Shown here in pieces: positions 7,224-46,779 of a stretch of 64,000 nucleotides of DNA (its first letter is position 1; every line of letters begins with the position of its first letter). The stretch comes from Spirochaetae bacterium HGW-Spirochaetae-1 (lineage in GTDB: Bacteria > Spirochaetota > UBA4802 > UBA5550), in contig PGXY01000005.1 in assembly GCA_002839375.1 (NCBI GenBank), positions 1 through 64,000 on the forward strand, in the 5' to 3' direction. A program made the translations under genes and the position numbers. The notes under the pieces are model-generated. The model was given only the letters and a program-made list of their open reading frames with translations, was not told the DNA's origin and did not search any database.

Positions 7224-9515
7224 ATGAGAATACTTGATACTTTAATACAGCGCCTTCCAAAAATCTTTCCGGCCCGGGATACTGAAACCCTGCAAAAATC
7301 GCAGGCGCTGTTAATCATTATTCTCATCCATGTTCTTTTACTGCAGCCCTTTCTGATATTACACATCATGCTGTTCGGTCTCTGCAAGTTTTTACTCTTT
7401 CCCTTCGTCATGACACTCCTGTTCCTGGCTTCCATTTACATGCTGAAGAAAGGATATTATGAAATAAGCGCCCACGGCATTATCATTTCTTTTATGGCCG
7501 TAGTCTGGATTTCATGCCTCTACAACATTATGCTCGGTGAATCTATTTGGATCATCATGACCCATTTCATGTATATCCTAACCTCCTTCGGCCTGTTTGC
7601 CCTGCATCTTTTTAAAAGGAAATACACCATCAGCCTGTATGTTGTCGTCAACCTGCTGATACTGCTCATCACCCTTAGCCTCATGGACAGCAGATACTCC
7701 CTGGCGAAAAACGAAAGATTCGCGCTTTTTGTCTATCCCGTCGTCTGTTTTTTATATGCAGGAGTAATAGCCCATCTCAACTTCAGGGCAGGACGGCACA
7801 TGCTGGAGAAATACGAGTCCGCCCTTGATCAAGTCAGAATAAGCGAGGGCAGGTATCACAATCTCTACAACAATACTCTTACGGGCATGATCTGTGTGGA
7901 AACACCCACGGGAAGAATTACCTCCGCCAATGAAACGGCGGTTTTACTTCTTGGATATACAACCGAGGATGAAATACAAAACGAGATACTGTTTCAATCA
8001 CTTCTCGTCGACCAGAATGCTTTCCCAAAAATACTGGCATCCCTGCGTGATAATAATTCCTATTATGTCATGGAAACCAATCTAAGGAAAAAAGACAATG
8101 GCATCTTCTGGGCGGAACTCGCACTGAAATATTGCTCGCAGAGCCGCAGAATCGATATTTGTTTCGTTGATATAACGGAAAGAAAAAATGCCGAGCAAAA
8201 CCTTCACCACCTGAAGTATTTTGACCAACTGACGTCGCTTCCCAACAGACTGTCTTTCCTGCAGAGAGTTGATTCTGAAATTGAGAAGGCCGGCAGGAAA
8301 AACCGCAGTTACATCAGCGCCGTCCTCTGCGTCGGTATCGACAACTTCAGGAAGATAAACGACGTTTACGGCGCAGTCGCGGGCGACGCGGTACTCGGTG
8401 AAATGGCGTTTCGCCTCATGCAACTGATCCGTGATGATGATATCGCGTCACGTCTCAGGGGAGACATGTTTCTTGTCTTTCTCAACGAGCTTGGCGGGCA
8501 CGATGAAATCAACCATGTAATGGAAAAAATAACTAAAACTGCGGGCACTCCCTTCTCCGTGGAATCAAATATAATCGATGTGACGGTTTCCATGGGGTTA
8601 TGTTTTTTCCCCGATGACGGCAGGACGGCAATGGAGCTCGTGGAAAAAAGCGAATCAGCTCTCTATATCGCAAAAAGCCGGGGCAGAAACACCTGCCATG
8701 TGCATGACAGCAGGCTCAACACTCTCATGATAAATAATTTTAAACTCGAAAAGGATCTGACAAAAGCGATACGGGAAGAGGAGTTTGTTTCTTTTTATCA
8801 GGCCAAACTTGACAGGCAGGGATTCGTAAGCGGAATTGAAGTTCTTATCCGCTGGAATTCACCGGAACGCGGACTTGTTCCCCCCGGAGCATTTATTCCC
8901 CTGGCGGAAAAAAATGGCATGATACGGGATATCGGCCGTATAGTTCTCCGTCAGGCCTGCGTTCAGATGAAAGACTGGGTTGACAGGGATATCTTCACGG
9001 GATCTATTTCGGTCAACGTATCTCCATTAGAGTTCCACGACCCCGCTCTCATGGACAGTATTGAAACCATCCTGAACGCCACCGGCCTGAACCCCCGTTT
9101 CCTTGAGCTTGAAATAACCGAATCAAGCCTTGTAATCGATGAAAAGGAATGCATCGATAAGCTTACCAGGCTCCATGATATGGGTATCGCCATTGCTATC
9201 GATGACTTCGGAACCGGTTATTCATCGCTGAACAAGCTACGCGACCTCCCCATTGACACGCTGAAGATAGACAGATCCTTTGTTGAAAAACTCCCCGATG
9301 ATATACGATCCTGCACCATTACTCGGGCCATAGTAGATCTTGCCCATAATCTCGGCTTTGCCATAGTTGCCGAAGGAGTAGAAACAAAAGATCAGTTCCA
9401 ATACCTGAAAAATCTTGAGTGCGACAGTTTCCAGGGCTATTATTTCTCAAAGCCCGTTCCGGCGAAGGAATGCGAAAAAATACTCGCGGAACATAAAGGA
9501 TCATTAAAAAACTGA
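7224..9515 (+). CDS. Membrane PAS-GGDEF-EAL cyclic-di-GMP signalling protein
   Basis: A 763-residue protein. About six N-terminal membrane helices (30-195) form a sensory module. They are followed by a PAS domain (about 208-320), a GGDEF domain (330-490) and an EAL domain (510-755). The GGDEF signature is replaced by RGDMF (near 410), so cyclase activity is unlikely and the domain may be regulatory. The EAL domain keeps the expected residues: EVL in place of EAL with the metal-binding Glu (near 538), ITES, DDFGTGYSS (near 660), KIDRSF and AEGVET. It should therefore hydrolyse c-di-GMP at the inner membrane. The gene is monocistronic and has a weak SD. Confidence 0.9.
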   Translation: MRILDTLIQRLPKIFPARDTETLQKSQALLIIILIHVLLLQPFLILHIMLFGLCKFLLFPFVMTLLFLASIYMLKKGYYEISAHGIIISFMAVVWISCLYNIMLGESIWIIMTHFMYILTSFGLFALHLFKRKYTISLYVVVNLLILLITLSLMDSRYSLAKNERFALFVYPVVCFLYAGVIAHLNFRAGRHMLEKYESALDQVRISEGRYHNLYNNTLTGMICVETPTGRITSANETAVLLLGYTTEDEIQNEILFQSLLVDQNAFPKILASLRDNNSYYVMETNLRKKDNGIFWAELALKYCSQSRRIDICFVDITERKNAEQNLHHLKYFDQLTSLPNRLSFLQRVDSEIEKAGRKNRSYISAVLCVGIDNFRKINDVYGAVAGDAVLGEMAFRLMQLIRDDDIASRLRGDMFLVFLNELGGHDEINHVMEKITKTAGTPFSVESNIIDVTVSMGLCFFPDDGRTAMELVEKSESALYIAKSRGRNTCHVHDSRLNTLMINNFKLEKDLTKAIREEEFVSFYQAKLDRQGFVSGIEVLIRWNSPERGLVPPGAFIPLAEKNGMIRDIGRIVLRQACVQMKDWVDRDIFTGSISVNVSPLEFHDPALMDSIETILNATGLNPRFLELEITESSLVIDEKECIDKLTRLHDMGIAIAIDDFGTGYSSLNKLRDLPIDTLKIDRSFVEKLPDDIRSCTITRAIVDLAHNLGFAIVAEGVETKDQFQYLKNLECDSFQGYYFSKPVPAKECEKILAEHKGSLKN

Positions 9516-44631: not shown

Positions 44632-45072
44632 GCGTGACAGGACGTCACGCGTGTGCGAGGACGGCACAGGAGGTGCCATCCGCAGTGTTATCATTGGTTC
44701 ATACTGCACAGTGGTTCACCATATCCCATTCTATTAATTAATCAGATGTAAGCTAATAATTCTCACAATCCGATGATAAGTCCCAGCGGCGCATGAGCGA
44801 CGCTACAGGACGTAGCAAGTGTCGAACGCTGACAGGATGTCAAAAAAACGTTCGACCTGCCAAGCCGCTCTGGCGTTTGAGCGAGCGCGACCAACAGGAT
44901 GTTGGAAGTGCCGGCGTAGGCACGGATGCCGTGAGCCGGCCCGGGGAGGTCGAGGAGGGGGCGGCGCAACTCCCTCCTCGCGTTCCAGTCCCGGACGCCT
45001 CGGGACTCACTCCCCGACCGGGGAACCCGGTTAAACTCAAGCCATAAAGATGATAACCCCTGTGAGGGTTAT
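44632..45072 (+). repeat. Array of hairpins with AGGA loops (possible CsrA-binding RNA)
   Basis: Five hairpins show AGGA in the loop: 44632-44650 (GCGTGAC-AGGAC-GTCACGC), 44663-44677 (GGCAC-AGGAG-GTGCC), 44802-44816 (GCTAC-AGGAC-GTAGC), 44830-44842 (TGAC-AGGAT-GTCA, nested in a GTCGAACG/CGTTCGAC stem, 44821-44856) and 44891-44905 (CCAAC-AGGAT-GTTGG). GC-rich stems follow at 44952-44979 and 44987-45007, and ATAACCC/GGGTTAT at 45053-45072. The context ACAGGAYGT matches the known CsrA/RsmA site. No convincing protein frame spans the region. It is either a CsrA-sequestering RNA or a REP-like hairpin repeat; no promoter is identified. Confidence 0.6.
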
Positions 45073-45082
45073 ACAATAAAAC

Positions 45083-46549
45083 TCAATCCGATTCAAACGC
45101 GCCAATAGACCAGGGAACGGTCCGCGTGTTTCCATTAATATCCGTAGTAAACAGTGCAGACAGATTTTTTCCTCCCTGTTTTACGGACAGGGGCGTTGAA
45201 GAGGTGCATGCAAGTGTAGATACATTTACATAGGGGTTCACATTCAAATTCCCGTGCCCCGTGGGACGTATCATGGGGCCGCCATCGGCATTGACAAAAT
45301 TCCCGCCTGCAACCGAGGTCATATACGCATCATAAAAAATATAATCATCATCCCGGTACAGAGCCGTTGCGCAATTATAGACCGCGTTATTGTCAACGGA
45401 AAGCGGATCGCTGTCGGAGAATTCCTCACATATCCCGAAACTGTTCATAGCGGAACCGCCGGTAAGAAATATTATGTTATTGTTAATATACACATGACCT
45501 TCGGTTAAGGTGATCCCGGAAGCCCCCAGGTCCCCGTCACCGCCGTCTATCGAGTTATTATAGATATAGCAGGTGATGTTATCGACCTGCGATGTCTGGT
45601 TTGCGATACCACAAGTCTTCATCGCATCGAAACCGCTCGTTTTTATTACATTATTGACGATATACGTCGCCGATCCCGTGAGAGTGATTCCGTATATTAC
45701 ACCGTCCGTGGAAAATTCATCTATGATATTATTCATTATCAAAGATGCAGAGTAATACTCATCAATTCCATAGGCAGCGGTAGTGCCTCCTCCCCCGTGA
45801 ATATGATTGCCGATTATCCGGGCGCTTGTGTAATGGGTATTGATCCCCCTGGTATACACAGGGCCGTCCCCGCCATGGATATCATTATTCTCGATAACCG
45901 GCGAGCCCTCCCATGTCGTTATACCATAATTCTCCGAGCCTGTGCTGCTGCCGCCGTAAATAACATTGTTCGTAATGGTGGCGGAAGCGCCGTCCATGAA
46001 AATTCCCGAGTTATATTCACCGGCTCCGCCTCTTATGGTGAAACCGTCTATACAGGCAGACGAGGTTATATTCGGACCCAGATATATCACCCTGTTAGGA
46101 TAGGAAAAAGAACCGGAGTCTACGGTGGTGGCGTCCCTTATCGTCGTGGTATAGACCGCAGGATTTCTCATACTCCAGGAGGTTGAATATCCGCCGTAAA
46201 GAGAGACATCTTTTTTGATGCAAACTCCGCTGGAAGTATGATCGCCGATCCGGTCTGCCCCATCCACGCTATAGACGCCCTGCGACACATGTATTTCACT
46301 GAAATTGTGCGAAGCAGCGATATTCACGGCGAATTGAATGGTCTTAAAGGGTTTTGATTGTGTCCCGGTGTACGAATCGCTTCCCGCAACACTCACATAG
46401 AGAACATCATCTTCGCCGTAACTTATCGTATTGCTGCCGCCGGGATCATCCGTTGATGTACCGCTATCTGACGGAGCAGATACATCGCATGCCATTGCAA
46501 TTACAAGCGCCAGGAGAATTAATGCAGATATCATACCTTTTTTCATCAT
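45083..46549 (-). CDS. Parallel beta-helix lipoprotein (DUF1565-like)
   Basis: A 488-residue lipoprotein: MMKKGMISALILLALVIAMAC gives a lipobox ending at Cys21. An N-terminal YVSVAGSDSYTGTQSKPFKTIQ segment is typical of DUF1565. A right-handed parallel beta-helix follows, with repeated ITNNVIYGGS, IENNDIHGG, IIGNHIHGGGG and NNNIIFLTGG rungs. Such proteins bind or cleave polysaccharides; no catalytic Asp/Glu set can be named. The ATG at 46549 has an AAGGTGAT SD, and earlier starts would not give a good signal. A family A repeat copy and an unassigned spacer lie downstream of its promoter side. Confidence 0.8.
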   Translation of the reverse strand: MMKKGMISALILLALVIAMACDVSAPSDSGTSTDDPGGSNTISYGEDDVLYVSVAGSDSYTGTQSKPFKTIQFAVNIAASHNFSEIHVSQGVYSVDGADRIGDHTSSGVCIKKDVSLYGGYSTSWSMRNPAVYTTTIRDATTVDSGSFSYPNRVIYLGPNITSSACIDGFTIRGGAGEYNSGIFMDGASATITNNVIYGGSSTGSENYGITTWEGSPVIENNDIHGGDGPVYTRGINTHYTSARIIGNHIHGGGGTTAAYGIDEYYSASLIMNNIIDEFSTDGVIYGITLTGSATYIVNNVIKTSGFDAMKTCGIANQTSQVDNITCYIYNNSIDGGDGDLGASGITLTEGHVYINNNIIFLTGGSAMNSFGICEEFSDSDPLSVDNNAVYNCATALYRDDDYIFYDAYMTSVAGGNFVNADGGPMIRPTGHGNLNVNPYVNVSTLACTSSTPLSVKQGGKNLSALFTTDINGNTRTVPWSIGAFESD

Positions 46550-46779
46550 ACAGATCACCTTACCCATCAATAAAAAGATTTCATTTCCATAATTCAACGG
46601 GGTGACATTTCAGCGACGCCCGGTGTGCCCTGTCATGGAACAGCTTAATGCATGATAGATAAAAGTCGACGATTTAGTCAATATCTATTTTGCTCTTTTT
46701 AAGCGTCTCGGCTTGCATGCCGCAAAAGTGCGAAGCAATGATATCGGGCGTACCCCTGCGCATTGCCGTTTAGATATTC

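Follow-up and report, generated by a model that had tools for sequence, protein, structure and literature searches.

Does the run of small hairpins at positions 44632-45072 encode a regulatory RNA that sequesters CsrA, or is it a piece of repetitive DNA? The run lies in the window (the whole stretch analyzed here, 64,000 nucleotides of the Spirochaetae bacterium HGW-Spirochaetae-1 genome), and an earlier note, made from the letters alone, had suggested that it may be a CsrA-sequestering RNA because of its AGGA loops. The array is present as that note described it and is slightly richer, with six GGA-loop hairpins on the plus strand between 44632 and 44940. Five carry AGGA pentaloops, namely gcgtgacAGGACgtcacgc (44632-44650), ggcacAGGAGgtgcc (44663-44677), gctacAGGACgtagc (44802-44816), tgacAGGATgtca (44830-44842, enclosed by an 8-bp outer stem at 44821-44856) and ccaacAGGATgttgg (44891-44905), and the sixth, ggcACGGATgcc, presents the hexaloop ACGGAT within an outer stem at 44910-44940. 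The motif ACAGGAYGT is enriched, occurring five times in the 64-kb window compared to 0.48 expected, and four of these occurrences fall within 44637-44902 on the plus strand. The stretch folds better than 100 of 100 shuffles (z -3.9), and the sole open reading frame across it, of 84 amino acids, is as unconvincing as the note had judged. The closing stem that had been called terminator-like (ataaccc..gggttat, 45053-45072, strand unassigned) did not bear this out: it has no T-run on the plus strand, and weak, T-rich terminator-like tails occur on the minus strand only. Our analysis indicates that the feature is probably a mosaic built from a short palindromic repeat, mobile and REP- or MITE-like, that belongs to one uncultured order of Spirochaetota and has no linked transposase.

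About three copies of a roughly 57-nt unit, joined as a mosaic, make up the array. Unit A (44632-44684, plus strand) consists of gcgtgacAGGACgtcacgc, a short linker and an outer stem tgcg/cgca around ggcacAGGAGgtgcc; its hairpins recur in the same genome at G000:C7:179006 (46 nt, 93% identity) and at C3:363722. Unit B (44799-44857, plus strand) is the canonical two-hairpin form, with hairpin 1 (H1) at 44802-44816, the linker AAGT at 44817-44820 and hairpin 2 (H2) at 44821-44856 containing the inner tgacAGGATgtca, and it is matched by our covariance model R1, trained on 17 units, with 69.8 bits (E 9.9e-11, whole genome searched). In Unit C (44890-44940, plus strand), H1 is formed by ccaacAGGATgttgg and is followed by AAGT and by an H2 whose 6-bp outer stem gccggc surrounds the hexaloop at 44919-44930; copies with 89-92% identity are found at G000:C8:120149 and C3:449023. 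A GC-rich inverted-repeat module (CCGGGGAGGTCGAGGAGGGGGCGGCG...), distinct from the unit, accompanies arrays at their 3' side. Here it occupies 44941-45035 on the plus strand (query positions 352-430 in the own-genome BLAST) and recurs at about nine further places in the genome with 82-89% identity.

When the array was compared to its own genome by BLAST, 17 matches were obtained, self included, and a sister array used as query gave 23. Combined, the two queries point to about 25 or more intergenic places, at which the modules are shuffled and vary from place to place. The earlier note had held that many identical copies elsewhere in the genome would speak against a sponge; the copies are indeed many, but they are related rather than identical. 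Outside the arrays AGGA is not dominant in the genome-wide loop spectrum of hairpins, and hence there is no genome-wide loop bias. Matches elsewhere in the order, from further genera and families, exposed the common unit: H1, a (W)AGTG linker, and an H2 made of an outer stem and an inner hairpin with an invariant CA..GGA.G, the 3' side being A-rich in one of two types. Across the aligned unit set AGTG is invariant, while AATG variants exist elsewhere, and the units in alignments A1 and A2 carry the (W)AGTG linker, with CGAC the commonest tetranucleotide upstream. The predicted two-hairpin structure is supported by compensatory changes, with 10 stem pairs altered on both sides; 93.4% of cells are paired, whereas shuffling gives 80% and sliding the alignment about 30%.

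With R1, the unit was recovered from 26 of 46 genomes belonging to the same order and, beyond it, from one other Spirochaetota genome only. The richest genomes hold at least 33-37 copies, scored candidates being capped at 38. When 84,980 prokaryotic genomes were scanned for exact patterns, all 18 matching stretches came from Spirochaetota MAGs. Carriage by viruses was considered and rejected, as IMG/VR gave no matches. Judged by this distribution, the repeat appears confined to a single order of uncultured Spirochaetota, endemic rather than imported. The earlier note had offered a REP-like hairpin repeat imported from elsewhere as its alternative; the REP-like half of that proposal fits better than a sponge, and the imported half falls, since the repeat is endemic to the order.

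The reading first proposed was a CsrB/RsmZ-like small RNA gene, whose transcript would titrate CsrA dimers through its GGA hairpins, in addition to control by FliW. Six GGA loops in 310 nt, the CAGGANG loop context known from CsrB and the fold reported above all speak for such a gene. A search for csrA, which the note had suggested, revealed one copy in the genome (E 2.1e-24), directly after fliW. Further encouragement comes from Leptospira, whose CsrA recognizes GGA hexaloops and no longer binds once GGA is changed to AAA (PMC8668096). These points are countered by the roughly 25 or more dispersed copies and by the genomic setting of the array. A DUF1565-type gene lies with its 3' end toward the array (45083-46597, minus strand) and a Phd/YefM-YafQ-like toxin-antitoxin pair, weakly recognized by Pfam, lies on the other side (44454-43827, minus strand); because both are on the minus strand, the GGA loops lie on the strand antisense to either neighbor. 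No promoter-like site was detected upstream of the array on the plus strand, the sigma-70 consensus serving only as a yardstick, and no plus-strand terminator was found. Rfam scans of the window and 12 array loci yielded no family matching the array at the gathering threshold, and the PrrB_RsmZ model reached only 10.6 bits against a cut-off of 44. In addition, 15 of the 39 homologous pentaloops in this genome read ACGA, so that about 40% lack GGA, and copies interrupt one another by nested insertion. A dedicated sponge gene is thus unlikely, and we regard a CsrB/RsmZ-like gene at this particular locus as very improbable.

The repeat behaves as mobile DNA: it is dispersed, occurs in tandem and is nested in its own loops. 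In one other genome of the set (G004), units follow each other head to tail with a period of 57. Nested insertions were located by BLAST of split units, since a brute-force search for split hairpins gave too much noise with arms of 6 bp. Such insertions, each of one inverted unit into the apical loop of another copy, were seen in three genera. In the genome studied here (C12, L086:2023), a 57-nt inverted unit lies in such a loop, and joining its flanks restores exactly the sequence that two intact paralogues have. In G004 (L180/L128), the inverted unit measures 56 nt and interrupts CAGG^ATG in a copy that is 97.5% identical to the intact L179. In G003, L212 contains a 58-nt inverted unit in the loop, with about 3 bases lost, and L209 is the empty counterpart. 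A fourth case, L130:2302, is probable. In these events, which are three only, CATC directly precedes the inserted unit when its own strand is read 5' to 3', and no target duplication is seen. This flank is absent from most copies and may be a property of insertions into loops only. The availability of filled and empty sites makes the unit's target rule directly testable.

Following this pattern, we propose that the unit would move as single-stranded hairpin DNA and would enter 3' of CATC in looped-out DNA. Mobilization would be provided by an unlinked enzyme, as in repeats derived from IS200/IS605 elements, and a Y1/HUH transposase would be the obvious suspect. Y1_Tnp is present in 39 of the 45 genomes from this order; the number of units correlates only weakly with the number of Y1 genes (rho 0.37), less than it does with genome size (0.56). 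A scan of 24 Y1-transposase loci from five genomes showed only one with a unit close by, and this neighborhood looks incidental, since a sister copy of equal score has no adjoining transposase. With that exception, none of the five own loci and the 19 in four other genomes shows a RAYT flanked by units, some of these loci being cut by contig ends. A linked RAYT was therefore rejected as such, which, like the weak correlation with Y1 number, counts against the mobile reading; a RAYT may yet act in trans.

The surroundings of the copies are varied. Relative to neighboring genes, determined by simple ORF picking and not from curated annotation, orientation is random across 40 clusters (++ 11, +- 11, -+ 11, -- 7); in the window's own genome, copies are mostly antisense to the upstream gene (20 of 29). 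Other arrays lie near toxin-antitoxin-like genes (G000:C12, L086:1800-5500; G000:C11, L082; L060; L064), and neighbors of arrays outside the window include MNT/HEPN-like and DUF433-like genes recognized by eye only. One unit (8731-8787) resides inside a 3814-codon open frame (L123:956-12400) that reads through it without a stop, for which the intragenic palindromic elements of Rickettsia offer a likeness. At L144:6339-6640 and other loci of G004, an outer palindrome of REP-like kind (CCCTCGCCC...GGGTGAGGGC) surrounds the unit, and plain CCCTCACCC/CCCTCTCCC hairpins that lack the unit occur close by. In G014, a group II intron domain match of 107.8 bits (L059:28-263) lies near a unit.

If the array is a mobile repeat, why are its loops so well kept? 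The likeness to CsrA sites that the earlier note had perceived is genuine: across about 100 units drawn from many genera, pentaloops and hexaloops alike follow C-A-(N)-GGA-N-G, and loops of either size fit the CsrA/RsmE loop rule (compare PMC8668096). Among 103 units, identified by a model whose training set had GGA loops, about 93 H1 and about 97 H2 loops retain GGA and the following base is free; H1 hexaloops, which were outside the training of the model, also keep A-N-GGA-N. This loop grammar is the best evidence for CsrA. Outside the window's genus, such conservation (GGA in about 90%, next base free) accords better with CsrA binding than with a CATC target, a point against the mobile reading. 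It is possible, if doubtful, that the RNA of the repeat could bind CsrA when a copy is transcribed in the right orientation.

One way to read this conservation is that selection keeps GGA because read-through transcripts of the many copies jointly titrate CsrA, or are protected by it. The retained GGA with its free next base, the H1 hexaloops and the compensatory change of the stems would agree with such a distributed sponge, as would the presence of csrA in 140 of 148 genomes, were csrA not near-universal in the phylum, which makes co-occurrence uninformative and leaves it no power as a test. Random orientation, or a mostly antisense one in the own genome, also argues against it, and antisense copies keep GGA no worse: the ratio of GGA to CGA is 20:6 in '--' copies and 8:4 with the upstream gene in sense. 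In the window's genome, furthermore, pentaloop cores are mixed (22 GGA, 15 CGA and 2 other), whereas the hexaloop cores are GGA in 16 of 19. The second base of these pentaloops is G or C only (AGGAN/ACGAN) except in 2 of 39, a two-state pattern that is almost absent in other genera. CsrA binding is at most a putative reason for loop retention, and we consider a sponge spread over many copies improbable. Rather doubtful, too, is the fuller scenario in which a selfish repeat spreads CsrA-binding loops, homes into its own loops and acts as a distributed sponge in FliW-CsrA spirochaetes. Were CsrA to bind the units, a mobile repeat would shape the free pool of a global regulator.

The mobile palindromic repeat that we favor adds an order-specific class, unusual in its two-hairpin unit, whose loops are conserved and which inserts into those loops. 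It also calls for caution, since arrays of GGA hairpins are commonly taken for CsrA sponges and can be transposable repeats. Our literature searches found no work joining CsrA sites with REP elements and, by title or abstract, none on spirochaete CsrA sponges; the study of Leptospira CsrA mentions a candidate CsrA-related ncRNA in L. biflexa (PMC8668096).

Among known systems, CsrB and RsmZ resemble the array in their repeated hairpins, in GGA within penta- or hexaloops closed by C-G and in the CAGGANG heptamer. They differ in that the units here are dispersed and randomly oriented, have no promoter or terminator of their own that we could find and no Rfam match, and do not keep GGA throughout their homologous loops within this genome. 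The TwoAYGGAY RNA motif of Rfam is likewise a hairpin pair with GGA-type loops, and the H2 hexaloops of our units read ANGGAY; linker and host group differ, and the motif appeared neither at the gathering threshold nor among weak matches. Integron attC sites were considered informally, and no attC-like core sites were noticed. Elements of the IS200/IS605 type (Y1, HUH) share hairpin DNA and, judging by the nested sites, insertion beside a short sequence, here CATC, without target duplication; the units here lack a linked transposase and their mechanism is inferred. The closest parallel is with REP/BIME elements and RAYT-mobilized REPINs (PMC3733652, PMC2817692, PMC3116915), which are also short palindromes lying between genes, present in tens of copies and often clustered, and which also form mosaics and dimers, in some copies lie inside other palindromes and are occasionally intragenic. 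REPs bear an unpaired terminal GTAG/CGTC tag, of which none was seen in alignments A1 and A2, and their copies flank RAYT genes, which the units here do not, although CGTC-tagged REPs likewise have no linked transposase (PMC3733652). Because terminal tag and RAYT linkage are absent, we place the unit as a REP-type mobile palindrome outside the described superfamilies, set apart from REPs by its length of about 57 nt, its two hairpins, its (W)AGTG linker, its conserved GGA loops and its insertion into its own loops.
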